This document shows, one piece after another, positions 9,322 to 26,739 of a DNA stretch of 39,120 bases (position 1 is the first letter of the stretch; each line of letters starts with the position of its first letter). The notes beneath the pieces were generated by a model. It had not been told where the DNA came from. It was given only the letters and a program-made list of their open reading frames with translations, and did no database searches. Position numbers and translations under genes: made by a program. The stretch is from Caldifarciminota bacterium. GTDB lineage: Bacteria > Hydrothermota > Tepidihabitantia > SM23-42. The stretch covers positions 1-39,120 of the forward strand of contig JAFGPO010000053.1 of NCBI GenBank assembly GCA_016936155.1, given 5' to 3'.

Positions 9322-10538
9322 TGCAGGAGTTCCTCTACGGATTGCGGAGCAACATACGTATTGGCCGCGATCTGCCGGTTGTCAATGAAATCACCGTCAT
9401 CATTTGTGCAATTCGGCGGCAGGACGATACGGTCAAAACGATGGTCATGCGGTTGTATCGATTGGTCGATATCGTCTGCTCCGAGTAATCCGGATACCGT
9501 GACGGTTGGTCCAAAAAAAGTGTTTTCAATGGTACACACCTCGATGTCACCGGCACCAATCATTCCGCCCTGGATCAGTCGCTGTTGAAGCATGGTGAGG
9601 TACGGTTTTGCGTACTGCGATGTGACAAAGAGCACCCGTCCCTTGATCTTTCCGCGCGCATCAATCGCGGATACCTCGTCGAGAAAAGACCGGACCATGC
9701 CGATGCCATTTTCGATCTGGGGCATATCATCGTAGTAGGGTGATGAGGGGATTTCAATGCCGCTCATAATGTAAAATTCATCAGCAGCGTACACGACGCC
9801 CTTGCCGCGCTGCGCGCGGAACTCATGCTGTCGGGCGGCGACCAGGTGTACGATTTCAGCCGCCTGACCCGCGGTCACGAGCGGATATGATGGTGCATAA
9901 CGGGTACGGCCGACCGGGATGATCCCGATCGAGGCCACGCCCGGATAGAGCGCACTGAGTTCCTCGATGCTTTTATTCAATTGAGCACCGTCATTGAGGC
10001 CAGGGATCACGACGATCTGGCAATGAAGTGTGATCTTGTGGCGGATCAATGAACGCAGCTGTTCTATGATCGAACCCGCGCGTTCATTTTTGAACATCGC
10101 GATGCGGAGTTCAGGATCCGTTGTATGCACCGAGACGTATAAAGGGGTCAAACGCAGGCGCGCAATGCGTGTGATATCGGTATCAGTAACATTCGTGAGG
10201 CTGAGGAAGTTGCCAAAGAGAAAGGACAATCGGTAGTCATCGTCGCGCACATAGAGGGAGGCGCGGAGACCTGAGGGTAACCCCTTGATAAAGCAGAATG
10301 CACAGTCGTTCCTGCACGTACGATACTCAGGTGCCTGGAGCGTGATTGGAATATCCTCTTCAGGTCTAAAAGCGATCCTTTGCGTGCGGCCGTTCAATGC
10401 AACAGTGACCTGGCGGGGCTGCGCTTGATCATTGTAGAATTCGAACTCCAGAAAATCATCGATCGAGTGATCGTTGATGCTTATCAACCGTGATTGAACC
10501 GGGATCCGTGCATCCCGGGAGTGTTCGACGATAACCAT
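9306..10538 (-). CDS. DUF512 radical SAM protein
   Basis: 410 aa, cytoplasmic. The N-terminus (RLISINDHSIDDFLEFEFY) resembles the end of a degenerate PDZ-like domain, as is usual in this family. A Cys75-x3-Cys79-x2-Cys82 motif (CRNDCAFCF) binds a 4Fe-4S cluster of the radical SAM type, and GLRASLYVRDDDYRLSFLFG follows, characteristic of DUF512. The family is conserved and frequently adjacent to der, but its substrate is unknown to me; a role tied to ribosome or tRNA maturation is only a guess from the neighbours. It is the first gene of the operon. The TATAAT hexamer ends 5 bp before the ATG, so the mRNA is probably leaderless. Confidence 0.9.
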   Translation of the reverse strand: MVIVEHSRDARIPVQSRLISINDHSIDDFLEFEFYNDQAQPRQVTVALNGRTQRIAFRPEEDIPITLQAPEYRTCRNDCAFCFIKGLPSGLRASLYVRDDDYRLSFLFGNFLSLTNVTDTDITRIARLRLTPLYVSVHTTDPELRIAMFKNERAGSIIEQLRSLIRHKITLHCQIVVIPGLNDGAQLNKSIEELSALYPGVASIGIIPVGRTRYAPSYPLVTAGQAAEIVHLVAARQHEFRAQRGKGVVYAADEFYIMSGIEIPSSPYYDDMPQIENGIGMVRSFLDEVSAIDARGKIKGRVLFVTSQYAKPYLTMLQQRLIQGGMIGAGDIEVCTIENTFFGPTVTVSGLLGADDIDQSIQPHDHRFDRIVLPPNCTNDDGDFIDNRQIAANTYVAPQSVEELLQWLRS

Positions 10539-10543
10539 TACGA

Positions 10544-10572
10544 ATTATATGATATTTTAGTATAAAATTCAA
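10544..10572 (-). promoter_or_regulatory. Promoter of the DUF512-der-plsY-gpsA-merR operon (leaderless type)
   Basis: On the minus strand TTGAAT (10572-10567), 17-bp spacer, TATAAT (10549-10544), then TCGTA and the ATG at 10538. Transcription would begin at or next to the start codon. No Shine-Dalgarno is present. Confidence 0.7.
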
Positions 10573-10602
10573 GTGTTTCTTTAACCAAATACGAGGTTTA
10601 TA

Positions 10603-10630
10603 TTGACGCTGAGAGCATTTTGGATATAAT
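10603..10630 (+). promoter_or_regulatory. Promoter of the citrate-to-2-oxoglutarate operon
   Basis: TTGACG (10603-10608), 16-bp spacer, TATAAT (10625-10630). The start near 10637 gives a leader of about 160 nt before the ATG at 10797, by far the longest leader of any promoter in the window. Confidence 0.75.
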
Positions 10631-10737
10631 AATGGACAGAAATTTTTCAGGGTAATGATCTCCATGATCACTTTTTGTGAGAATTCTGGAAAATGTTTCG
10701 AAGAAGTACTGTCGTGAGAACATGAAAGCAATCCCTT

Positions 10738-10759
10738 CAGAACCATGAACGTGGTTCTG
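10738..10759 (+). promoter_or_regulatory. Hairpin in the leader of the TCA operon
   Basis: Perfect 8-bp inverted repeat CAGAACCA / TGGTTCTG with a 6-nt loop, 37 nt before the ATG. No poly-T follows, so it is not a standard terminator. It could be a protein-binding or mRNA-stability element. Confidence 0.5.
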
Positions 10760-10796
10760 TTCTGTTGCGCGCAGGTGTATTACTATTGGAGGCATT

Positions 10797-12065
10797 ATGG
10801 GTAAAACCTTAGCAGAGAAGATATTGTCCGCAAAGAGTGGAGAAGATGCACGTGCCGGTGGTATCGTTATCGCAAAAGTCGATGTTGCCGCATTCCAGGA
10901 TGGTACCGGACCGCTCGGGGTCCGGCAGCTGCAAAAAATGAATGTCACCAAAGTTAAAGCAAGAACATCGATCTTTTTTCTCGATCATGCAGCGCCCTCT
11001 CCACGAAAAGAATTGAGTAATGATCATATGCTCCTTCGGTCGTATGCCGCGTCTGCAGGTGCTATCGTGTCGGACATCGGTGATGGAGTGATCCATCAGC
11101 GGCTCGTCGAGGCATATGTTAAGCCCGGTGATGTTGTGATCGGCGGCGATTCTCATACCTGTACATCAGGTGCTCTCGGTGCATTCGCTACTGGTATGGG
11201 ATCGACTGATGTTGCGGTCGGCATGGCCAAGGCAAAGACGTGGTTCCGGGTGCCGGTTACTTACCGGATCGAAGTAACGGGGAGATTCCAACCTGGAGTT
11301 TTTTCCAAAGATTTGATTCTCTATTTGATCGGGATGCTCGGTGCGGATGGCGCGACCTATAAGGCCCTTGAATTCGGAGGTCCGGTGATCGATCGGATGT
11401 CAATGGAATCGCGGTTTACGCTTTCGAATATGGCGGTTGAAGCGGGAGCAAAGGTAGGGCTTATCGCATCGGATAAGGTAACGCGGGATTATCTGAAAGC
11501 GCGGAATCGTTTAAAAGAATGGAAACCGCTTGTTCCGGATCCTGATGCAGTTTACGAAAAGGTCATTACGATCGACGCGGGGAAAATACCGCCGCAGATC
11601 GCATTTCCTCATACGGTTGATAACACACGACCGGTCACCAAGGCGACCATGATAAAAGTCGATCAAGCGTTCATTGGAACCTGCACGAACGGCCGGATCG
11701 AGGATCTGAAGATCGCCGCGCGCCTATTAAAGGGGAAGAAGCGACACCCGCGTACCAGACTGGTCATCGTGCCTGCATCACGCGGTGTATTCCTGGAGGC
11801 CATGAACAAAGGGTATCTCGATATATTCGTAAAAGCGGGAGCGATGATCATCGGACCTGGTTGTGGTCCCTGTGTTGGCGTTCATCAGGGTGTTCTCGGG
11901 AATGGTGAGGTATGTATATCAACCGCGAACCGGAATTTCAAAGGAAGAATGGGTAATCCTGAGGGTTTTGTTTATCTTGCATCGCCCGCGACCGTCGCCG
12001 TATCGGCGATCAAGGGAAAGATCAGCGATCCCCGTCCATTATTCCGCAGTTTGAAACACACATAG
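10797..12065 (+). CDS. Aconitase / LeuC-HacA-type hydratase, large subunit
   Basis: Large, 4Fe-4S-bearing subunit of a two-part hydro-lyase of the isopropylmalate/homoaconitate family, 422 aa. Cluster ligands are Cys296 (IGTCTNGR), Cys356 and Cys359 (GPGCGPC); the signature GGDSHTCTSGALGAFATGMG is present. Family membership alone would allow 3-isopropylmalate, homoaconitate or citrate as substrate. The operon (citrate synthase, small subunit, isocitrate dehydrogenase) and the absence of leuA or leuB indicate that it converts citrate to isocitrate through cis-aconitate. Shine-Dalgarno TTGGAGG precedes ATG 10797. It is the first gene of the operon, behind a ~160-nt leader. Substrate assignment is inference; family assignment is firm. 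Confidence 0.88.
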   Translation: MGKTLAEKILSAKSGEDARAGGIVIAKVDVAAFQDGTGPLGVRQLQKMNVTKVKARTSIFFLDHAAPSPRKELSNDHMLLRSYAASAGAIVSDIGDGVIHQRLVEAYVKPGDVVIGGDSHTCTSGALGAFATGMGSTDVAVGMAKAKTWFRVPVTYRIEVTGRFQPGVFSKDLILYLIGMLGADGATYKALEFGGPVIDRMSMESRFTLSNMAVEAGAKVGLIASDKVTRDYLKARNRLKEWKPLVPDPDAVYEKVITIDAGKIPPQIAFPHTVDNTRPVTKATMIKVDQAFIGTCTNGRIEDLKIAARLLKGKKRHPRTRLVIVPASRGVFLEAMNKGYLDIFVKAGAMIIGPGCGPCVGVHQGVLGNGEVCISTANRNFKGRMGNPEGFVYLASPATVAVSAIKGKISDPRPLFRSLKHT

Positions 12066-12090
12066 TCATAATAGTGAAAGGAGAAAGAGA

Positions 12091-13365
12091 ATGGCCACAT
12101 TAAAAGAGACATTAGCGAAGAAGATCCCGGGTCTTCGTGACGAGATCAAAAGTTTCGTTAAGGCGAATGGCGCGAAGGTCATATCAGAAGTCACTGTACA
12201 GCAAGCCTATGGCGGTATGCGAGGGGTCAAATCCCTGGTGTGCGATACCTCGGTTGTGCCACCGGACAAAGGTTTGATCATCCGAGGCAGACCCGTGGCG
12301 GAATTGAAGAATGAGCTGCCAGAAGCCGTGTTCTATCTTTTGGTCACCGGTGAAATGCCGGATCAAGTATCGACCGCAGCATTGACCAAGGAATTGAAGG
12401 CACACGCCAAGGTCCCTGATTATGTATGGAAGATACTTGAAGCGATGCCCAAAGATTCCCACCCCATGGTCATGTTCAGCCTCGGCATCCTTGCGATGGA
12501 AAAGGAATCCGTATTCCGTAAGAAATACACTGAAGGGATGGCCAAGACCGATTACTGGGATCCAACGCTTGAGGATTGCATTAGAATTATTGCCGCACTG
12601 CCCACACTCGCTGCAGGTATTTATAGAATGCGTTTTAATAAGGGCGCCCGGATCGAGCCAGATCCTGCTCTGGACTGGGGCGCTGATTACGCGCGCATGC
12701 TCGGTATCAAGGACCCAAAAGGCGAGTTTGCGAATCTCATGCGCCTGTATATGGTCCTTCACTCAGACCATGAAGGTGGCAATGTGAGCGCACATACCTG
12801 CCATTGCGTCGGTTCTGCTCTCTCTGATCCCTACTACGCTATTTCTGCCGGCCTCGATGGACTGGCCGGTCCCCTGCACGGTCTCGCGAATCAGGAATGT
12901 TTGCGGTGGGCCATCATGGTACGGGACAAATTCGGTGGCGTACCGAGTGATGATCAGCTTCGTCAGTTCGCCTGGGATACCTTAAATTCAGGTCAGGTTA
13001 TTCCCGGATACGGGCACGCCGTGCTTCGCATTACTGACCCCAGGTTCGCTGCATTCCGCGAATTTGGTGCACGGGTGTGCCCGGACGACGATCTTTTCAA
13101 GATCGTAGACCGGGTATTCAATGTTATTCCCGATGTCCTGAGAGAACACGGAAAAGCGAAAGATCCGTGGCCTAATGTCGATGCGGCATCCGGCTGTTTG
13201 CTTTATCACTTCGGGATTACCGAGTTCGAATACTATACCGTGCTGTTCGGCGTATCACGTGCTCTGGGCATGTGTGCTCAACTGATCGTAAGCCGCGCCC
13301 TTGGTGAAGCGATCGAGCGACCGAAATCCGTAACAACGGAATGGATGAAACAAACGGTGAAATGA
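12091..13365 (+). CDS. gltA: Citrate synthase, eukaryote-like (type I) form
   Basis: Condenses oxaloacetate and acetyl-CoA to citrate; 424 aa. The catalytic triad aligns with the pig enzyme (His274, His320, Asp375): His263 in GPLHGLANQE, His309 in GYGHAVLR and Asp364 in PNVDAASG, a constant offset of 11. The block HSDHEGGNVSAHTCHCVGSA is nearly the mitochondrial sequence and unlike the hexameric NADH-regulated enzymes of proteobacteria. Eukaryote-like citrate synthases are known in Geobacteraceae, so this is a rare bacterial type rather than a contaminant; base composition and Shine-Dalgarno use match the neighbours. The gene is preceded by AAAGGAG, 25 bp behind the hydratase large subunit. 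Confidence 0.95.
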   Translation: MATLKETLAKKIPGLRDEIKSFVKANGAKVISEVTVQQAYGGMRGVKSLVCDTSVVPPDKGLIIRGRPVAELKNELPEAVFYLLVTGEMPDQVSTAALTKELKAHAKVPDYVWKILEAMPKDSHPMVMFSLGILAMEKESVFRKKYTEGMAKTDYWDPTLEDCIRIIAALPTLAAGIYRMRFNKGARIEPDPALDWGADYARMLGIKDPKGEFANLMRLYMVLHSDHEGGNVSAHTCHCVGSALSDPYYAISAGLDGLAGPLHGLANQECLRWAIMVRDKFGGVPSDDQLRQFAWDTLNSGQVIPGYGHAVLRITDPRFAAFREFGARVCPDDDLFKIVDRVFNVIPDVLREHGKAKDPWPNVDAASGCLLYHFGITEFEYYTVLFGVSRALGMCAQLIVSRALGEAIERPKSVTTEWMKQTVK

Positions 13366-13400
13366 TCGTGGATGATCGTTCTTTGTAGGAAGGAGATCGT

Positions 13401-13901
13401 ATGGTTTTAAAAGGGAAAACGTGGAAGTTCGGGGACAGTATTTCAACGGATTTGATTTGTCCCGGACGTTATTTCCACCTCCGTTCCAATTTGCCCGAAC
13501 TTGCCAAGCATGTGCTTGAAGATGCGGATCCGGATTTTGCCTCGAAAATGAAGACTGGCGATTTTGTCGTCGCGGGCAACAACTTCGGGCTCGGAAGTTC
13601 ACGCGAGCATGCACCAACGATCATTAAACTTGCCGGTGTTGCCGCCGTGCTTGCTAAATCGTTCGCGCGAATATTCTACCGTAATGCGATAAATGTAGGG
13701 CTACCTTTACTGGAATGCGATACTGATATGATCAACGAAGGGGATGAACTGGAAATCGATCTTGCGACCGGCGCGATCCGGAATTTGTCCAGAAGAACCG
13801 AACTCAAGGCGCACCCTTTACCGCAGGCGATGATCAACATTTTAAGCGACGGTGGGCTTGTTGCGCATTTGGAGAAGCACGGGGATTTCAAGCTGGACTG
13901 A
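13401..13901 (+). CDS. Aconitase / LeuD-HacB-type hydratase, small subunit
   Basis: Swivelling small subunit pairing with the 10797 gene, 166 aa, typical of archaeal-type LeuD2/HacB. The signature GNNFGLGSSREHAP (residues ~59-72) is intact. The substrate-specificity loop reads RYFHLRS (23-29), with an arginine at 28. In characterised archaeal enzymes the loop YLRT goes with tricarboxylates (homoaconitate) and YLV(Y/M) with isopropylmalate, so an arginine here fits citrate/isocitrate. That comparison is from family knowledge; the loop is one residue longer, so the alignment is tentative. Shine-Dalgarno GGAAGGAGAT. The separation of the subunit genes by citrate synthase is unusual. Confidence 0.88.
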   Translation: MVLKGKTWKFGDSISTDLICPGRYFHLRSNLPELAKHVLEDADPDFASKMKTGDFVVAGNNFGLGSSREHAPTIIKLAGVAAVLAKSFARIFYRNAINVGLPLLECDTDMINEGDELEIDLATGAIRNLSRRTELKAHPLPQAMINILSDGGLVAHLEKHGDFKLD

Positions 13902-13998
13902 TGGTCACGTAAACGTGCGGTGACGACCTGCAGTAAGATGATCCGCGGCATCCGTAGCTTCTTTTTACAATTGGACGGACCAACAAGGAGGTTATTCA

Positions 13999-15195
13999 AT
14001 GGAAGCGATTGGTAGGGCAAAAGAGCATTTTGGAAAACTGCTCGAAGATCAGTGTAAACGTGTGGAGAAGATTAAAGCGCAAAAGGATTGGATTGACTAT
14101 ACTCAGCTCAAACCGGTCATTATCGGGGTTCTGGGCGGCGACGGCATTGGACCTCATATCACAGGTGAGGCACAACGCGTTCTCGAACACCTGCTTGCGG
14201 ACGAAGTCAAGAACGGGAAAATCGAATTTCGCGTTATCGACGGGCTTACCATTGAACGGCGTGCCGAAGTGCACAAACCGATCCCGGATGAAGTTCTCGT
14301 TGAGATAAAAAAATGCCATATTCTGCTCAAGGGACCAACAACCACGCCGAAGAAGGGTGATCCGTGGCCGAACATCGAGAGTGCGAACGTTGCGATCAGG
14401 AAAGAACTCGATCTGTTCGCGAACGTCCGACCGGTCCGTGTGCCTTCCATGGGGATCGACTGGATGTTCTTTCGAGAGAACACTGAGGGTTCGTATGCGC
14501 TCGGTCCATTCGGGGTGGAGGCAACCGAGGATATTGCGATCGATTTTACCCTGGCAACGAAACCAGGAACTGAACGGATCATCCGTCTTGCATTCGAATA
14601 TGCGAAGAAGAACGCGCTCGACCGGGTAACCGCCATTACCAAAGCGAATGTGATAAAGACGACCGATGGCCTGTTCCTCAAGATCTTTTATGAGATCGCA
14701 CAAGAGTATCCCGGGATCAATGCCGATGATTGGTTCATTGACATCATGACCGCGAAACTGGTTGACACCAAGCGAAGGACTCAGTTCAAGGTGATGGTGC
14801 TGCCGAACCTTTACGGAGATATCCTGACCGACGAGGCGGCTGAGTTCCAGGGTGGTGTCGGTACGGCAGGGAGCGCGAACATCGGCAAACAGTATGCGAT
14901 GTTCGAGGCGATCCATGGAAGCGCACCCCGTATGGTCACGGAGGATCGGACCCAGTATGCTGATCCGAGCAGTGTAACCAAAGCCGGGGCGATGTTATTG
15001 AATCACCTCGGATATGCAACCCTGGGAAAGAAGCTGGAAATGGCACTTGATGTATGCGGACAGTATGAGAAGAAACTGGTCATGACCGGCCGTTCAACCG
15101 GCGCGACCGGACGAGAGTACTGTGATTACATCATGGCGACGATCGCCGATCCGAACCTTGAAAAGCGCTGGAAGGACTTCCAAAAAAGCGCGTAA
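13999..15195 (+). CDS. icd: Isocitrate dehydrogenase [NAD(P)+]
   Basis: Oxidatively decarboxylates isocitrate to 2-oxoglutarate; 398 aa. Family motifs: GGDGIGPHI, RENTEGSY (159-166), the catalytic NVIK lysine at 220, and the metal-binding NLYGDILTDEAAEFQGG (Asp274, Asp278). Isocitrate rather than isopropylmalate is supported by Ser128-x-Asn130 in ESANVAIRKELDLF, matching Ser113/Asn115 of the E. coli enzyme. The coenzyme loop HGSAPRM (306-312) matches neither the NADP form (HGTAPKY) nor the NAD form (HGTAPDI), so the cofactor is open. An extra ~35 residues precede the usual start, but ATG 13999 has an excellent Shine-Dalgarno, AAGGAGG. The gene ends the operon; a strong inverted repeat follows. 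Confidence 0.92.
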   Translation: MEAIGRAKEHFGKLLEDQCKRVEKIKAQKDWIDYTQLKPVIIGVLGGDGIGPHITGEAQRVLEHLLADEVKNGKIEFRVIDGLTIERRAEVHKPIPDEVLVEIKKCHILLKGPTTTPKKGDPWPNIESANVAIRKELDLFANVRPVRVPSMGIDWMFFRENTEGSYALGPFGVEATEDIAIDFTLATKPGTERIIRLAFEYAKKNALDRVTAITKANVIKTTDGLFLKIFYEIAQEYPGINADDWFIDIMTAKLVDTKRRTQFKVMVLPNLYGDILTDEAAEFQGGVGTAGSANIGKQYAMFEAIHGSAPRMVTEDRTQYADPSSVTKAGAMLLNHLGYATLGKKLEMALDVCGQYEKKLVMTGRSTGATGREYCDYIMATIADPNLEKRWKDFQKSA

Positions 15196-15216
15196 TTCAG
15201 ACTCGTTGCACAGGGT

Positions 15217-15248
15217 AAGAGGTGCTCCATATTTACGGAGCACCTCTT
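15217..15248 (+). terminator. 12-bp perfect inverted repeat between icd and fabG (terminator and/or operator)
   Basis: AAGAGGTGCTCC (15217-15228), 8-nt loop, GGAGCACCTCTT (15237-15248). It lies 22 bp behind the icd stop, where a terminator is expected, but only TCTTG follows rather than a T run. The last two bases of the right arm are the first two of the fabG -35 hexamer, so the palindrome may instead, or also, bind a regulator. Confidence 0.6.
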
Positions 15249-15274
15249 GACATAACAACGATAATGGCTACAAT
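15247..15274 (+). promoter_or_regulatory. Promoter of the fabG-acpP-fabF operon (leaderless type)
   Basis: TTGACA (15247-15252), 16-bp spacer, TACAAT (15269-15274), then TTGGC and the ATG at 15280. Near-consensus hexamers place transcription start at the initiation codon. There is no Shine-Dalgarno. Confidence 0.82.
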
Positions 15275-15279
15275 TTGGC

Positions 15280-16011
15280 ATGTTATTGAGGGGTAATGTT
15301 GCACTCATTACCGGTGGGGCAAGCGGTATCGGTGCAGGTATTGCACGTCGTTTTATCAAAGAAGGGGCAGTGGTCATCCTCGGCGATGTTGATGCACAGG
15401 CCGGTCAGGCAACGGCTCAGGATCTGGGCGACCATGCTCTTTTCAGTACGCTCGATATCAGCAATGAAGATAATGTGAATGCCGTCGTTAAAGGCGTGTT
15501 CAACGAGCATGGGAAGATCGATATTTTGATCAACAATGCCGGTATCACAAATGATCGGCTTCTTTTAAGGATGACAAAAGAGGACTGGCAGCGGGTCATT
15601 GATATCAACCTCACGGGTACGTTCCTGGTCACACGCGCGGTCATGAAATACATGATCAAGCAACGGTACGGAAGGATTACAAATATCGCCTCGATCGTGG
15701 GTCTGATCGGAAATCCCGGCCAGGCGAACTACTCAGCCAGCAAAGCCGGGATCATTGGATTCACCAAGGCGTGTGCTAAAGAACTAGCCGGGCGGAGTAT
15801 CACGGTCAATGCGATCGCACCCGGGTTCATTGATACGCGGATGACCGATGCCCTGTCTGATGAAATTAAAGAACAGTACAAACAAGCCATTCCGGTGAAA
15901 CGGTTCGGTACGGTCGATGACGTTGCTTCTTTAGCTGCCTACCTGTCATCACAAGAGGCATCGTACATAACCGGACAGATCATATGCGTTGATGGCGGTA
16001 TGGTAATGTGA
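15280..16011 (+). CDS. fabG: 3-oxoacyl-[acyl-carrier-protein] reductase
   Basis: Short-chain dehydrogenase of 243 aa that reduces 3-oxoacyl-ACP in fatty acid synthesis. Glycine motif TGGASGIGAG (11-20), NNAG (85-88), catalytic Asn110, Ser138, Tyr151 and Lys155 (YSASK), and C-terminal ITGQIICVDGGMVM. Asp36 at the end of the second strand (VVILGDVDA) would favour NADH over the NADPH used by E. coli FabG; this is an inference from the SDR family. It is followed by acpP and fabF, which fixes the role. The start is set by the promoter: the -10 hexamer ends 5 bp upstream and the N-terminus MLLRGNVALITGG is the normal one. Confidence 0.94.
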   Translation: MLLRGNVALITGGASGIGAGIARRFIKEGAVVILGDVDAQAGQATAQDLGDHALFSTLDISNEDNVNAVVKGVFNEHGKIDILINNAGITNDRLLLRMTKEDWQRVIDINLTGTFLVTRAVMKYMIKQRYGRITNIASIVGLIGNPGQANYSASKAGIIGFTKACAKELAGRSITVNAIAPGFIDTRMTDALSDEIKEQYKQAIPVKRFGTVDDVASLAAYLSSQEASYITGQIICVDGGMVM

Positions 16012-16044
16012 TGCCGGATGTATACTTGAGCGAAAGGAGAGAAC

Positions 16045-16281
16045 ATGGCGCTATTTGATGATGTACGTAACATCATTGTGGAACAACTGCATGTTCCACC
16101 AGAGAAGGTCACAATGGAAGCAAAATTCATCGAGGATCTTGGAGCCGATTCGTTGGATACGGTCGAACTTATCATGGCGTTCGAAGAGAAATTCAGCTTG
16201 CAGATATCAGAGGAAGAAGCGCAGAAACTCGATACGGTTGGAAAAGCAGTTACGTATTTAGAAGGTAAAGTTACTACATAA
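16045..16281 (+). CDS. acpP: Acyl carrier protein
   Basis: Small acidic carrier, 78 aa. Ser36 in [20 protein letters not shown] receives the 4'-phosphopantetheine arm from CoA. Four-helix-bundle length and charge are normal. Shine-Dalgarno AAAGGAG precedes the ATG. It lies between fabG and fabF as in many bacteria; coaE, making the CoA that donates the prosthetic group, follows two genes later. Confidence 0.97.
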
Positions 16282-16288
16282 CACGACC

Positions 16289-17530
16289 ATGAGAAGGGTT
16301 GTCGTGACAGGCATTGGGGCAATAACGCCGGTTGGCAATGATGTCAAGACGACATGGGATCGGTTGCTGCAAGGTCAGAGCGGCATCGCCCTGATTTCGT
16401 TCTTCGATACCCTGAATTTGCCGGTCAGGATCGCCGGTGAAGTAAAGGGTTTCCAGCCTGAAGAAAGGTTCGAACCGAAGACCATGAAAAGACTTGATCG
16501 CTGCGTTCAGCTCTGTTTATGGGCGACCCATGAAGCGATCGCAGATGCAAGGATCGATCTTCAGCACTGTGACCGTACGGATATCGGTGTGATCATCGGC
16601 TCAGGGATCGGCGGCCTTGGTGTCTGGGAGCGTGAACACAGGAAATTCATAGAACAGGGACCAGCGCGCGTATCGCCCTTTTTAATTCCGATGATGATCC
16701 CGGATATGACCTCAGGGTATGTTGCGATACACTGGGGCTTGAAAGGCCCTAACTATACGACTATTTCCGCGTGTGCTTCTGGTGCCCATGCGATCGGTGA
16801 TGCGTTCCGTGCGATCAAGTACGGCGATGCAACGGTCATGATAACCGGCGGTGCAGAAGCGCCGGTCACCCCGTTCGCCCTTGCCGGCTTCAGCAACATG
16901 CGTGCTCTCTCGCGCCGGAACGATGAACCTTCACGGGCATCGCGGCCATTTGATATTGAAAGGGATGGATTTATCATATCCGAAGGCGCCGCGACCATTG
17001 TCCTGGAAGAACTCGAGTTCGCCTTGAAACGGGGAGCTCGTATATACGCTGAGATCATCGGATTCGGTGCGACTGGAGATGGATACCATATCACCGCACC
17101 TGCGCCGGACGGCGAAGGTGCCCGGCGGTCAATGGAACGGGCGATCCGAGAAGCCGGGTGCAAGAAAGAGCAGATTACCTATATTAATACCCACGGTACA
17201 TCGACGGAACTCAACGATAAGTTCGAGGCGATCGCTATTAAGCAGCTGTTCGGCGAGCATTGTCAGAAGATCGTGCTCAATACGACGAAATCAATGATCG
17301 GACACACACTCGGTGCAGCGGGCGCGATCGAAGCATGCGTCACGGTACTCTCGATCCAGGAAGGCAGGCTCCATCCGACATTAAATCTGGAGAATCCCAT
17401 GCCGGAATGCTCGGGACTCACGTTTGCGAGTAGAGCAGCACAGGATTATACGATCGATTATGCCCTATCCAATTCACTGGGATTCGGAGGGCATAATTGC
17501 ACGCTATGTTTTCGACGGTATCCATCATAG
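16289..17530 (+). CDS. fabF: 3-oxoacyl-[acyl-carrier-protein] synthase II
   Basis: Condensing enzyme of fatty acid elongation, 413 aa, thiolase fold. The Cys-His-His triad is Cys162 (SACASGAHAIG), His302 (NTHGTSTELND) and His339 (MIGHTLGAAGAIEA). The oxyanion and glycine-rich C-terminal motif SNSLGFGGHN is present. Seven base pairs separate it from acpP with no clear Shine-Dalgarno, so translation is probably coupled. No fabD or fabH is in this window. Confidence 0.97.
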   Translation: MRRVVVTGIGAITPVGNDVKTTWDRLLQGQSGIALISFFDTLNLPVRIAGEVKGFQPEERFEPKTMKRLDRCVQLCLWATHEAIADARIDLQHCDRTDIGVIIGSGIGGLGVWEREHRKFIEQGPARVSPFLIPMMIPDMTSGYVAIHWGLKGPNYTTISACASGAHAIGDAFRAIKYGDATVMITGGAEAPVTPFALAGFSNMRALSRRNDEPSRASRPFDIERDGFIISEGAATIVLEELEFALKRGARIYAEIIGFGATGDGYHITAPAPDGEGARRSMERAIREAGCKKEQITYINTHGTSTELNDKFEAIAIKQLFGEHCQKIVLNTTKSMIGHTLGAAGAIEACVTVLSIQEGRLHPTLNLENPMPECSGLTFASRAAQDYTIDYALSNSLGFGGHNCTLCFRRYPS

Positions 17531-17546
17531 GATGTATAATGGGAAG

Positions 17547-18122
17547 ATGGTCATTGGGGTGGGTGGTACGATCGGATCAGGGAAAACGACGGTGAGCAGG
17601 ATATTCGAATCAATGGGCAGTTACTACATATCAGCGGATGAAATTGGATGGGAGGTTCTATCAGACATTGCGCCGATCCTGAGGAAACGATACGGATCCG
17701 GCATTATGGATGGTGAGAGCATCGACCGGAATAAGTTAGCCGCACGCGTTTTTACTGATCCCGAAGAACTGACGTTTCTTAACAGCATTTCGCATCCCCT
17801 GCTCATTGAACGACTGAAGGCGCGGATCACGCAAGCATCCGGATCGCTGGTTGTGGTCGATGCGGCTCTCCTGTTCGATTGGCCGGAGATCATGGCGATA
17901 GTTGATTACCCGGTTCTCGTGATCGCACATGAATCACTAAAGGAACAACGATCCATTGCTCATGGCATTGATCGTACACGCTACCGGACAATACGCCAAA
18001 ACCAGCACGATGACAGTCATCTCGCATCAAAAGCTCGATTTACGATCAACAATAATGGCGCGGTCGAAGCATTGTATGACCAGTGCCGGAGTATTTTAAA
18101 GGAGATACAACATGGTCATTGA
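17547..18122 (+). CDS. coaE: Dephospho-CoA kinase
   Basis: Phosphorylates the 3'-OH of dephospho-CoA, the last step of CoA synthesis. The chosen start, MVIGVGGTIGSGKTT, puts the P-loop at the N-terminus as in the family and gives 191 aa; ATG 17532, five codons earlier, is also possible. Further CoaE-like elements are YYISADEIGWEVL, a lid helix region and VVVDAALLFDWPEI. The P-loop reads GGTIGSGKT where most CoaE proteins have TGGIGSGKS, so the protein is divergent and another small P-loop kinase is conceivable. It begins 16 bp after fabF and overlaps the zinc-ribbon gene by 11 bp. Longer frames beginning inside fabF are rejected. Confidence 0.82.
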   Translation: MVIGVGGTIGSGKTTVSRIFESMGSYYISADEIGWEVLSDIAPILRKRYGSGIMDGESIDRNKLAARVFTDPEELTFLNSISHPLLIERLKARITQASGSLVVVDAALLFDWPEIMAIVDYPVLVIAHESLKEQRSIAHGIDRTRYRTIRQNQHDDSHLASKARFTINNNGAVEALYDQCRSILKEIQHGH

Positions 18123-18894
18123 ATGCAGTAATTGCCATGCACGCTACAATGTCGATGCCAGCAAGATCCCTTCAGGCGGCGTGAGAGTGAAATGCCATAA
18201 GTGCCAGCATATCATCGTCATCCAAAAAGAGCCTTCGCAACCACTCCCTGCGTCTGAACCAACGATCCCTGAAAAGGCTTCTATGCCGGACGTTCAGCCA
18301 CCAGTAATCCCTCCGGAAGCGCCGCCCGCAGTTCCTGAGACACCCAGCGTACCAGAACCCGCACGACCTTCTGTGCCGGCCGAAGAACCAGAGCAACCAG
18401 AACATCCAGAAGGACCCACGGAACCTCCTTTCCCGGATGCTCCCAGTGAACAGTCAATGCCTGAGCATCCTGATGTTCCGGATGTTCAGCCGCCAACGCC
18501 GGAACCACCTGAGCCGACACCACCCGAAATACCTGACAGCAATATTCCTTCTGCACCCGCTGAACCAGCAATCCAGGCACCAGAGCCTGTGGCTGCAGCG
18601 CCGGCAGAACCACCAGCTCCCCCTGCCGCGGCAATGAGTGAGGAAGACAGGAAGTGGAATGAGCGGGCGCGACGTCTGGCTAAAGCACTTGCATCGGATC
18701 TTGTGCTTTACAACCAGGATAAAGTTGAGGAAGGTCTCCGTAACGGGACTTTAGCCAATCTCCTGGGACCGGAGATCCGAAGATCCTGGGATTACTATTG
18801 TCAGCAGATACCCAAACATATCGTCGAAAGCACTGATCATTTTAAGGAGCAGCTGAATAAAATCGTCGGTAAGGGAAAAGAGATATTTAAATAG
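18112..18894 (+). CDS. Zinc-ribbon protein with proline-rich linker
   Basis: 260 aa in three parts. Residues 1-40 form an MJ0042-type zinc ribbon, with Cys5-x2-Cys8 and Cys28-x2-Cys31 (ECSNCHARYNV, VKCHKCQHIIVI). Residues ~43-172 are a Pro/Glu/Ala-rich, disordered linker with many PEPP- and PEIP-like units. Residues ~175-260 form a helical domain (ARRLAKALASDLVLYNQDKV, RRSWDYYCQQIPKHIVES) of a kind I associate with other bacterial zinc-ribbon proteins of unknown role. No transmembrane segment. Shine-Dalgarno AAGGAG. It is the last gene of the fabG operon and converges with the PH/DUF1648 gene 3 bp away. Biological role unknown; a link to envelope or motility proteins seen elsewhere is not testable here. 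Confidence 0.8.
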   Translation: MVIECSNCHARYNVDASKIPSGGVRVKCHKCQHIIVIQKEPSQPLPASEPTIPEKASMPDVQPPVIPPEAPPAVPETPSVPEPARPSVPAEEPEQPEHPEGPTEPPFPDAPSEQSMPEHPDVPDVQPPTPEPPEPTPPEIPDSNIPSAPAEPAIQAPEPVAAAPAEPPAPPAAAMSEEDRKWNERARRLAKALASDLVLYNQDKVEEGLRNGTLANLLGPEIRRSWDYYCQQIPKHIVESTDHFKEQLNKIVGKGKEIFK

Positions 18895-18897
18895 AAG

Positions 18898-19875
18898 TCA
18901 GTCGGTATCACGACCGGTTGGCGCGATTCTCATCGTGATCCTGTAGTACACGAACAACAAAACAACCACGACACTTATAAATGCTACGAGCGCATATACA
19001 AAAGGGACCATGTGGTTACCACGGGTATTCAACCAGAAGGTATCCAGGGATATGAAGAGGGTGAAAAGCTGTATCCACGACACGAGCATGATCAGTAGAG
19101 CGAGAAGCGTGCGTGTATGGATGGTCCTGCGCATCCCGAAGTAGATACCGCAGTTCATTGCGAACAATATCGTTGATGGAATAACTCCACTCAGAAGATA
19201 GGATACCTTATGTCCCCATCGGTCCGGGGAGCCATATACATCGAAGTGTACAGCGATCCGCTCTGGTAATGATTGAAAGGCAAGTAGGATCGTGGCGATG
19301 GCGGCTATATACACTATAATCGGGAGTATGAGGATCAATGGTCGTACAATCACTTTCACGCCTGGCTGGAGCGGTTCCACGGGTACAGTGCTGCATGAAG
19401 TTACAGAACAAAGCGTGTGAACAAATTTTTCAATATCGCGGGGAGATAGTGCATAGCGCATTTTCTCGGCCTGTACGATCACGACGTGTTTCATCCGCGT
19501 GAGTTGACAATTGATCGGTCCGTACTCAGCCGTTGAGAACATGCCATAGTACCCGAACAAACCTCCGTTCCCAAACATCCGGATCATTCTTATCTTGGCG
19601 AGGTCCGGGACGATCGCGTAACCCTGGATATCACCGAGCGGGATCGTGATTGTTTTCCCGATCGCTTTACGAATGATGAGACGTGATCCATCAAAGCTAT
19701 ACTGTTGTGGACTGAGTGCGTAGGAAATAGCCAAGATGAGCATCATGCCGGCGGCCCAAAGCCAGCCATAGGGGACTTTGATGATGAAGAGCGCGGAGAG
19801 CGCGATCAGGATGGTGCAGACAATGATCGTGACCACAACGGCCGTGGTGTCGAGCCGGGCGGTGTTAAAAACCAT
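18898..19875 (-). CDS. Membrane protein with bacterial PH-like and DUF1648 domains
   Basis: 325 aa with about six hydrophobic segments (~11-31, 36-53, 179-200, 226-248, 257-277, 291-311). Between the second and third lies a ~100-residue soluble region starting YSFDGSRLIIRKAIGKTITI, which resembles bacterial PH (bPH) domains. The motif LPERIAVHFDVYGSPDRWG (203-221) is typical of DUF1648, found in SdpI-like immunity and sensor membrane proteins. No sdpC or sdpR homologue is nearby, so an immunity function is not supported. The TATAGT hexamer ends 5 bp before the ATG, so it is transcribed alone, probably leaderless. Confidence 0.82.
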   Translation of the reverse strand: MVFNTARLDTTAVVVTIIVCTILIALSALFIIKVPYGWLWAAGMMLILAISYALSPQQYSFDGSRLIIRKAIGKTITIPLGDIQGYAIVPDLAKIRMIRMFGNGGLFGYYGMFSTAEYGPINCQLTRMKHVVIVQAEKMRYALSPRDIEKFVHTLCSVTSCSTVPVEPLQPGVKVIVRPLILILPIIVYIAAIATILLAFQSLPERIAVHFDVYGSPDRWGHKVSYLLSGVIPSTILFAMNCGIYFGMRRTIHTRTLLALLIMLVSWIQLFTLFISLDTFWLNTRGNHMVPFVYALVAFISVVVVLLFVYYRITMRIAPTGRDTD

Positions 19876-19880
19876 AGCGT

Positions 19881-19909
19881 ACTATAGCGAAAACAATGCA
19901 GTACGTCAA
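19881..19909 (-). promoter_or_regulatory. Promoter of the PH/DUF1648 gene (leaderless type)
   Basis: On the minus strand TTGACG (19909-19904), 17-bp spacer, TATAGT (19886-19881), then ACGCT and the ATG at 19875. No Shine-Dalgarno. Confidence 0.68.
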
Positions 19910-19910
19910 T

Positions 19911-20018
19911 GCCCGATGATAGTCACTCCGTAGTACAAATTTTGCACGGTTAAAGCCCTCTTTGCCGTCTCGAGCCCTTTCCTGCCCTCTTGTAGCCTTC
20001 TACCGCCATGTTTCTTGC
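19911..20018. repeat. Low-complexity intergenic stretch downstream of glmM
   Basis: Imperfect units such as gccctctttgccgtctcgag, ccctttcctgccctcttg and tagccttctaccgcc recur. The other flank of glmM (about 21430-21465) carries the related gggagggtaagaagctcgag on the opposite strand. It looks like a dispersed purine/pyrimidine-biased repeat; no gene or clear terminator is visible in it. Confidence 0.45.
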
Positions 20019-21338
20019 TTATGAAAGCACTCGTTGTATCTTGTGAACGAGATTCTTGATATACCCATCGTCGCTGGATTCACCGATGATCCGGACCAGC
20101 GGTTCGGTCTGCGAAGGTCGGATGTGCACCCAGAAATTTTTTCCGCTGATCCGTAATCCATCCTGTGCGGTTATACGGCCTCTTACCAGAGATCGCAAAC
20201 GCGGCATTTTACGTTCAAAGCGTTCACGGGACATGCGTACTTTGACTTTGACCATATAAAACCTGGGGTACGATGCAATGATTTCGCTCAGCGGTCTCTT
20301 ACGCTGAGCCAGCAGAGCAATAGCATAAGCAGTACCGACAAGCGCATCCCGCGTCAGATTGATTCGGGGATCGATAATGCCTCCATTGCCTTCTCCGCCG
20401 AACACTGCTTTTACCTTTTGCATTTTCTCAACTACATGAGCTTCTCCTACCGGTGTTCGATACACAACGCAATCGTATTGACTGCATACATGTTCGAGCA
20501 AAGAGGTCGTTGATAAATTGGTCACAACCGGGCCTTTTATAGTTTCGAGAAGGTAGTCTGCCGCAAGCACGATCGACATATCTTCGCCAATCGGTTTTCC
20601 CTTTTCATCGACGATCGATACTCGATCACAATCTGGATCGCATGCTACACCAATATTACAACGTTTAACACGCACCAGATGGCTGAGTTGATACAGATTT
20701 TCGGGCGTCGGTTCAGGCCCCCGGGGGAACCGGTGGCTGTAGGTGCAATTCACCTCGTACACCCGGCATCCTAAAGACCGTACAAGCTGGGGTAAAGCTT
20801 TGGATCCGGCTCCATTCACCGCGTCGACAGCAACTGTCAAATGCGGCGCCTCGACGCGCAGCGTCTTCAGGATACGATCGATATGTTTGCGTATCGCATC
20901 AGTTCGCTTACGGACGGATCTCGCCTTCAGCGGTTTTATTATAGTGTCCTTTCGATCAAGATGCTTCTTGAATTTCTTGAGTTCCAGTTTATTCAAGAAT
21001 CGACCACCCCTCACCACGAATTTCAACGCGTTCCACTGGGCCGGATTATGGCTTGCCGTGATGATGATGCCGGCATTGGCCTTTAGAGTGCGGACCATGA
21101 AAAGTACCGTGGGTGTAGGTACGATGCCAAGATCGACCACCATGCACCGCGTTTGTTTCAGGCCATGCTTGACCGCTTTCAAGAAATCAGGGCTTGAACT
21201 GCGCGTATCCCTCCCCACAAGTATCGTCCCGGGTCCGGTAAACTCACCAAAGGCGCGGGCATACCGCGCCACATCATCAACCGTGAGATCTTTTCCAACG
21301 ATCCCCCGCAATCCTGATACGCTGAACATCAACGGCAT
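20019..21338 (-). CDS. glmM: Phosphohexomutase, GlmM-like (phosphoglucosamine mutase)
   Basis: Alpha-D-phosphohexomutase, 439 aa. The phosphoserine loop is ITASHNP (Ser96), the metal loop DPDCDRVSIVDEKG, and the sugar-binding loop GGEGNGGIIDP. The last motif and the N-terminus SVSGLRGIVGKDLT are of the kind found in archaeal-type GlmM and phosphomannomutase proteins. GlmM makes glucosamine 1-phosphate for UDP-GlcNAc, the precursor consumed by the mur genes later in this window; phosphomannomutase or phosphoglucomutase activity cannot be excluded. Single gene behind its own promoter, whose -10 hexamer ends 5 bp before the ATG. Confidence 0.88.
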   Translation of the reverse strand: MPLMFSVSGLRGIVGKDLTVDDVARYARAFGEFTGPGTILVGRDTRSSSPDFLKAVKHGLKQTRCMVVDLGIVPTPTVLFMVRTLKANAGIIITASHNPAQWNALKFVVRGGRFLNKLELKKFKKHLDRKDTIIKPLKARSVRKRTDAIRKHIDRILKTLRVEAPHLTVAVDAVNGAGSKALPQLVRSLGCRVYEVNCTYSHRFPRGPEPTPENLYQLSHLVRVKRCNIGVACDPDCDRVSIVDEKGKPIGEDMSIVLAADYLLETIKGPVVTNLSTTSLLEHVCSQYDCVVYRTPVGEAHVVEKMQKVKAVFGGEGNGGIIDPRINLTRDALVGTAYAIALLAQRKRPLSEIIASYPRFYMVKVKVRMSRERFERKMPRLRSLVRGRITAQDGLRISGKNFWVHIRPSQTEPLVRIIGESSDDGYIKNLVHKIQRVLS

Positions 21339-21343
21339 GGTTT

Positions 21344-21371
21344 ATTATAGTGGAGAAATAGTGTAAGTCAA
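21344..21371 (-). promoter_or_regulatory. Promoter of glmM (leaderless type)
   Basis: On the minus strand TTGACT (21371-21366), 16-bp spacer, TATAAT (21349-21344), then AAACC and the ATG at 21338. No Shine-Dalgarno. Confidence 0.8.
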
Positions 21372-21490
21372 TTGATTCCAAGGATTCAAGGCACTAAAAA
21401 ACAATTAAAGGCGTTGAAAACAATATAAAGCAGGGAGGGTAAGAAGCTCGAGAAGCGCATGGAATTCGGCGACAATGGCGTACGGCATTA

Positions 21491-21518
21491 TTGACATACG
21501 TCATATACGATGTACAAT
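21491..21518 (+). promoter_or_regulatory. Promoter of the glycosyltransferase-surE operon (leaderless type)
   Basis: TTGACA (21491-21496), 16-bp spacer, TACAAT (21513-21518), then AGAC and the ATG at 21523. This rules out the in-frame ATG at 21475, which lies upstream of the promoter. Confidence 0.82.
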
Positions 21519-21522
21519 AGAC

Positions 21523-22194
21523 ATGGATGTGAGCGAAACCGGCGTGGTGATACCAGCATATAATGCCGAATCGACGATTAACAATGTCATTGCAGCGTTA
21601 CGTGGCATCGGCTTTAGAAAAGAAGAGATCATTGTTGTGGATGATGGTTCATGCGACCTGACTGCGGACATAGTGCGCAGCAATGGTGTCGGCATGATAC
21701 GCCATGAACAAAATAAGGGAAAAGGTGCTGCCTTGAAGACCGGATTTCACTATGCGAAGGAACATTCATTGACCGGTGTTGTGACCATTGATGCAGATGG
21801 TCAGCACCAGATCCGGGATATTCCTTCCTTGCTTGAACACCGTCGTGACTATGATTTGATCATCGGTACGCGGTGTGACATGCGCACCATGCCGTTTGTG
21901 CGTAAGGTAGTCAATCGTATCACTTCGCTCGTTATCTCCGTTCTTTCGCAAGCGCATGTCCCCGATGTTCAATGCGGCTTGCGATACATCCGCATGACGC
22001 TGCTTGATCGTATAACGCTGCATACGAACCGTTATCAGACCGAATCCGAGCTTGTCTATAGAGCCCTGCGCGCTCATTTTCGTGTTGGTTTTGTGCCGGT
22101 CGCCACACACTATAATACGGAGAAGAGTTACATTCATCCATTTATCGACACAATCCGCTTCACACTTATGGCCGTGGGATTCTTATGGCGCTGA
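21523..22194 (+). CDS. Family 2 glycosyltransferase (DPM1/polyprenyl-phosphate type)
   Basis: GT-A enzyme of 223 aa from ATG 21523. Nucleotide-sugar motifs are VVIPAYNAESTINNVIAAL, EIIVVDDGSCDLTADI, NKGKGAALKTGF and DADGQH (the metal-binding DxD equivalent). The layout matches soluble dolichyl/undecaprenyl-phosphate mannosyl- or glucosyltransferases; no C-terminal membrane helices are present. The likely acceptor is a polyprenyl phosphate for envelope glycans, but donor and acceptor are inferences. Its last 10 bp overlap surE. The start is fixed by the promoter directly upstream. Confidence 0.88.
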   Translation: MDVSETGVVIPAYNAESTINNVIAALRGIGFRKEEIIVVDDGSCDLTADIVRSNGVGMIRHEQNKGKGAALKTGFHYAKEHSLTGVVTIDADGQHQIRDIPSLLEHRRDYDLIIGTRCDMRTMPFVRKVVNRITSLVISVLSQAHVPDVQCGLRYIRMTLLDRITLHTNRYQTESELVYRALRAHFRVGFVPVATHYNTEKSYIHPFIDTIRFTLMAVGFLWR

Positions 22195-26687: not shown

Positions 26688-26715
26688 TTGACAAAATCTA
26701 AATAATGTGTAAAAT
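26688..26715 (+). promoter_or_regulatory. Promoter of the dcw cluster
   Basis: TTGACA (26688-26693), 16-bp spacer, TAAAAT (26710-26715). The start near 26722 leaves a ~12-nt leader before the mraZ ATG. Confidence 0.78.
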
Positions 26716-26739
26716 GGTACAGAATGGGGGAAAATGGGG
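26715..26739 (+). promoter_or_regulatory. MraZ-binding repeats (probable autoregulatory operator)
   Basis: TGGTA (26715), TGGGG (26725) and TGGGG (26735) occur with an exact 10-bp period. E. coli MraZ binds direct TGGGN repeats separated by 5 nt, the same period. The first unit is degenerate. The set runs from the last base of the -10 hexamer to the start codon, so bound MraZ would cover the transcription start. Confidence 0.72.

Follow-up and report, generated by a model that had tools for sequence, protein, structure and literature searches.

Predicted leaderless first genes beside Shine-Dalgarno-led internal genes in an uncultured Stahlbacteria genome

Gene starts in the window

The window (39,120 nucleotides, the whole stretch of DNA analyzed) lies in contig C102, part of a 162-contig draft genome of 2.49 Mb with a completeness of 86% and a contamination of 6.7%. 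The host lineage is Candidatus Stahlbacteria (formerly WOR-3), which is uncultured. The FabF protein of the window shares 78% identity with its homologue in Candidatus Stahlbacteria bacterium E29_bin50, whose genome appears to belong to the same family. Among about 33 called genes, five start directly behind a promoter, with gaps between the −10 hexamer and the start codon of 5, 5, 5, 5, and 4 bp for the DUF512, fabG, PH/DUF1648, glmM, and glycosyltransferase genes, respectively. An earlier note had claimed for these genes a −35/−10 pair ending 4 to 5 bp before the ATG and no Shine-Dalgarno (SD) site; the pair is present at all five, and the −10 hexamer sits where an SD site would be.

The DUF512 gene start (10536 to 10572, minus strand) consists of −35 TTGAAT (10572 to 10567), a 17-bp spacer, −10 TATAAT (10549 to 10544), TCGTA, and the ATG (10538 to 10536). 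Its product is a TIGR03279-like radical SAM/DUF512 protein, and the profile match starts close to the N terminus. The fabG start (15247 to 15282, plus strand) reads TTGACA-16-TACAAT-TTGGC-ATG, with the ATG at 15280; the product matches TIGR01830 above the cutoff, and the gene is the predicted leaderless first cistron of fabG-acpP-fabF. The PH/DUF1648 gene start (19873 to 19909, minus strand; ATG at 19875) reads TTGACG-17-TATAGT-ACGCT-ATG. The glmM-like gene (start region 21336 to 21371, minus strand; TTGACT-16-TATAAT-AAACC-ATG, ATG at 21338) and the GT2 glycosyltransferase gene (start region 21491 to 21525, plus strand; TTGACA-16-TACAAT-AGAC-ATG, 4-bp gap, ATG at 21523) are divergently transcribed, and both are predicted to be leaderless.

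The glycosyltransferase start has a near-copy on contig C59 in which the identical gap is kept (TTGACATACGACATATGCGGGGTACAATTGACATG). This region (G000 contig C59:579-2613) carries a second glmM, 76% identical, together with a glycosyltransferase-type promoter like that of the window, each with the gap of its window counterpart; either the two loci are paralogous, or a related strain was binned into this metagenome-assembled genome (MAG). The window glmM (20022 to 21338) and its orthologues in the class match the archaeal-type phosphoglucosamine mutase model TIGR03990 (above the cutoff) better than the bacterial model TIGR01455.

The remaining starts of interest are leadered, internal, or spurious. 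SD sites had been claimed for the named internal genes, and GGAG or AAGGAGG was indeed found upstream of them. acpP (start region 16012 to 16047, plus strand), which lies 33 bp past fabG, has AAAGGAG before its ATG at 16045, and the icd-like gene (start region 13970 to 14001, plus strand) has AAGGAGG before its ATG at 13999. The fabG-acpP arrangement of the window recurs at locus L051, with a predicted leaderless fabG followed by acpP with AAAGGAG (AAAGGAGAGATAAAAAATG). The gene for an aconitase/isopropylmalate (IPM)-dehydratase large subunit (start region 10603 to 10799, plus strand) is a leadered first gene, with TTGACG-16-TATAAT (10603 to 10630), a leader of about 160 nucleotides, GGAGG, and an ATG at 10797. 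The promoter-abutting DUF512 gene lies opposite it, so that a single intergenic region serves one predicted leaderless and one leadered gene. The cluster from 10797 to 15195 encodes this large subunit, a eukaryote-like citrate synthase, the small subunit, and an isocitrate/isopropylmalate dehydrogenase; it is likely a segment of the oxidative tricarboxylic acid cycle or a related chain-elongation pathway.

At mraZ (start at 26734), the start codon lies 18 bp past the −10 hexamer. Here (26689 to 26738), the promoter TTGACA/TAAAAT is followed by TGGGG-GAAAA-TGGGG overlapping the start codon; this fits the layout of MraZ operators (TGGGN-N5-TGGGN) and suggests that mraZ is autoregulated. A promoter similar to that of mraZ occurs at G120 C125:5663. 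Strict matches to the promoter-gap-ATG pattern at ATG 2543 and 26724 in the window were rejected as chance ATGs, neither of which opens a gene.

Promoter gaps in the genome and in related lineages

The genome was scanned with the pattern TTGAC-N(15-17)-TANAAT-N(3-8)-ATG, with the reversed pattern and the same promoter at a gap of 23 to 28 bp as controls. The strict pattern has 150 matches in 2.49 Mb, and the reversed control has 1; the far-gap control has 61, many of which are probably leadered genes. Most strict-promoter ATGs at short gaps open reading frames of at least 80 codons (25 of 29 at gap 5, 16 of 21 at gap 6, and 10 of 12 at gap 7).

For a gene-based count, 985 genes were called by codon usage from 1.28 Mb of genome stretches, with start codons chosen from coding potential alone. 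Among promoters scoring at least 8, 30 of these genes have gap 5 and 13 have gap 6, over a background of 0.5 per position at gaps 40 to 69 and about 0 in shuffled sequences. GTG starts show the same gap-5 peak as ATG starts, and TTG starts show none. The −10 box thus stands above chance at the distance that would place transcription on the start codon (peak at gaps 5 to 6, flat controls). The earlier note had made its reading depend on genome-wide enrichment, and the sharp gap-5 peak bears it out. A dip at gap 7 and a rise at gap 8 were considered as a sign of two kinds of start site; they appeared in one analysis only and were absent with strict promoters and all ATGs, so two kinds are not claimed.

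The earliest stretches were picked by pattern matches and are biased; the percentages given here therefore rest on contigs C1 to C84 only (1.14 Mb, 871 genes), which were sampled regardless of matches. In these, 124 of 871 genes (14%) are predicted to be leaderless; the same classifier found about 4 when the upstream regions were base-shuffled. The full predicted leaderless set comprises 150 genes, with start choice aided by the signal in 60, an aid that does not affect the coding-only gap histogram. Gaps of 7 to 8 bp account for 34 of the 150, and there the first transcribed base is uncertain by 1 to 2 nucleotides. The −35/−10 spacer is 16 bp in 67 of 81 predicted leaderless promoters and 84 of 98 other strong promoters. 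A 16-bp spacer is thus found in >80% of strong intergenic promoters, predicted leaderless and other alike; the usual spacer is 17 bp, one longer than seen here.

The predicted leaderless genes are concentrated at the heads of transcription units. Among divergently transcribed genes in C1 to C84, which are certainly first, 60 of 150 (40%) are predicted to be leaderless, compared with 2 of 256 genes (0.8%) that follow another gene of the same strand within 20 bp (Fisher's P about 1e-27). Both genes are predicted to be leaderless in 14 of 89 divergent pairs. SD-led starts make up another 54 of the 150 divergent genes (36%), so leaderless starts are not universal among first genes. The earlier proposal of leaderless first cistrons and SD-led internal cistrons hence stands as to the genome-wide peak, the 40% versus 0.8% contrast, and the conserved spacing, but not as a rule for every first gene, as the leuC-like gene at 10797 illustrates.

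Further signs lie at the start codon itself. The predicted leaderless set has 126 ATG, 24 GTG, and 0 TTG starts, compared with 31 TTG starts among 834 elsewhere (P = 0.009). A pyrimidine stands at −1 in 92 of 108 predicted leaderless genes at gaps 5 to 6 versus 192 of 318 SD genes (P = 1e-6), and at 88% of gap-5 sites. SD sites are lacking, since the −10 hexamer fills positions −11 to −6 at gap 5; this lack is partly built in by the classifier and is weak evidence alone. The 16S rRNA retains its anti-SD tail CACCTCCTT (CCUCC) in this genome and most of the class, and the tail TGGATCACCTCCTT is present in 33 of 41 class genomes, this one included.

The spacing is conserved among orthologues. 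Of 41 class genomes, 40 yielded a glmM; gaps were taken by eye from the printed sequences of 30 of these loci. The gap is 5 to 6 bp in 14 of 14 orthologues from the order and 5 to 8 bp in 28 of 30 class loci, with spacing kept at protein identities down to 38%. In most genomes of the order, fabG heads its unit, 29 to 372 bp from the upstream frame, and its gap is 5 to 6 bp at 15 of 15 readable loci; the start regions at L217 and L051 are as in the window. In the other families of the class, fabG mostly follows an upstream frame by 2 to 38 bp, with a GGAG-type site at most loci; a few loci have no clear SD site, and L240 has a promoter near the start. Restriction to first cistrons is thus seen both in the divergent and internal counts and in fabG across the class.

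Short-gap matches average 153 and far-gap matches 52 per genome in the order (14 genomes), 54 and 20 in the other families of the class (26 genomes), and 10 and 6 in the other classes of the phylum (80 genomes). Short-gap matches outnumber far-gap matches in 40 of 40 sampled class genomes, and 15 genomes from other phyla, of up to 8.7 Mb, have 0 to 9 matches each. The scanned consensus is fixed and sigma70-like, so these counts cover lineages with that promoter form and miss others. The one ribosomal correlate tested, loss of ribosomal protein bS21, was rejected as an explanation: all 11 further class members examined have bS21, as does most of the phylum, and within the class only the incomplete MAG studied here lacks it.

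Translation initiation and alternative readings

We propose, with a probability of about 0.9, that the promoter-abutting first genes are expressed as leaderless mRNAs beside SD-led internal cistrons. The housekeeping promoter (TTGACA, 16 bp, TATAAT) would place the transcription start on the A or G of the ATG or GTG of many first cistrons, yielding an mRNA without a 5′ leader. Translation would then begin at the 5′ end, presumably by a 70S ribosome already assembled or by a 30S subunit that recognizes the 5′-terminal AUG or GUG with initiator tRNA. SD pairing with the 16S tail (CCUCC) would serve the downstream cistrons and the other first genes. The promoter anatomy, fixed spacing, first-cistron bias, start-codon bias, −1 pyrimidine, cross-genus conservation, and anti-SD sequence are observed; the start of RNA polymerase on the first base of the codon, and of the ribosome on the resulting 5′ end, is what we infer from them.

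The promoters could be real and transcription could begin 1 to 4 nucleotides upstream of the start codon, leaving a minimal leader without an SD site. Transcription start sites commonly shift by one or two bases. Counted from the −10 hexamer, the A of the ATG is base 6 at gap 5, base 7 at gap 6, and base 8 or 9 at the longer gaps, and gap 8 occurs in 23 of the 150 predicted genes. At the dominant gap of 5, however, any start site before the A would fall within 5 nucleotides of the −10 hexamer. The enrichment of a pyrimidine at −1 and of A or G at +1 is what a start precisely on the codon would produce, and a requirement for a purine at +1 would account for the lack of TTG. We consider such short leaders improbable as the general explanation.

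Less probable still is that the promoters fire and the true, SD-led start codon lies downstream, with the ATG behind the −10 hexamer unused. Some starts were assigned with the help of the signal, but the coding-only choice yields the same gap peak. In-frame starts with an SD site within 5 to 40 codons downstream are not commoner in the predicted leaderless genes (9 of 150) than in SD genes (21 of 318), the distance to the ATG is kept in orthologues, and family profiles mostly set in only a few residues from the predicted N terminus. That AT-rich sequence before genes merely mimics a −10 box has a negligible likelihood. A simple two-hexamer scan of 17 kb gave 27 hits versus 20.7 in shuffled sequences, a difference of about 1 standard deviation that is too weak to decide. 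Against such chance stand the reversed-pattern and shuffled-upstream controls (1 versus 150 and 4 versus 124), the position dependence at single-base resolution, and the low counts in the 15 genomes from other phyla.

Beyond the preferred reading of leaderless first cistrons, it is at about even odds that leaderless initiation is the ancestral, class-wide default of transcript-opening genes in this part of the WOR-3/Stahlbacteria phylum. It would be maintained by a rigid −35/16/−10/5/RTG module, with SD sites largely operon-internal and the mode of initiation changing with operon position. Promoter positions fix the start codons of such genes, and gene finders tuned to SD sites may misplace them. 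Genes that head a transcript in some genomes and lie inside an operon in others provide a natural comparison.

Relation to known leaderless systems

Mixed systems are already known in Deinococcota, Actinobacteria, and others. The earlier note knew of no description for this lineage; a search for "leaderless" with Stahlbacteria or WOR-3, covering literature outside subscription papers, likewise found no paper, and the presence of such a system in the phylum Stahlbacteria appears unreported. With it, the lineages rich in leaderless mRNAs, from which an ancient origin of leaderless initiation is argued, would gain an uncultured phylum.

In the survey of Zheng et al. 2011 (PMC3160421), 207 of 953 bacterial genomes contained TA-led genes, which made up about 20% of the genes of Actinobacteria and about 40% of those of Deinococcus-Thermus. 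As here, their TA-like signal lies at about −10 from the start, with TATAAT in medium-GC genomes. Unlike here, the survey covered 953 sequenced genomes, and candidate phyla of the WOR-3/Stahlbacteria type were not among the named groups. According to GeneMarkS-2 work quoted in PMC9581028, 21.6% of bacterial species are predicted to use leaderless transcription.

For mycobacteria, Shell et al. 2015 (PMC4633059) showed a 5′-terminal ATG or GTG to be both required and sufficient, and the predicted leaderless set likewise uses these two codons and not TTG. Mycobacterial leaderless mRNAs (PMC4633059; Cortes et al. 2013, PMC3898074) also occur alongside leadered SD genes, but they were proven by RNA sequencing, ribosome profiling, and reporters, whereas those described here are deduced from DNA.

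The closest comparison is with Deinococcota, in which Zhong et al. 2025 (PMC12340547) reported TANNNT 6 to 7 bp before open reading frames in a survey limited to classified species with completely sequenced reference genomes. Both groups have a −10 element a few base pairs from the start codon, a mixture with SD genes, group-wide conservation, and a large share of genes, at 14% of called genes here versus about 30% in Deinococcota (PMC12340547). The Deinococcota motif is TANNNT, mostly TACACT, about 6 to 7 bp from the open reading frame, and is strengthened by an added −35 element (PMC12340547); here, a full and strongly conserved TATAAT in most cases follows a strong TTGACA at 16 bp, with a modal gap of 5 bp. 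The sites scored here are −35 plus −10 promoters only and do not take the Deinococcota form of a degenerate TANNNT at 6 to 7 bp with an optional −35. The genes of this host thus work like the −10-motif genes of Deinococcota with a different promoter form, and they represent a new phylum for a known gene organization rather than a new mechanism.
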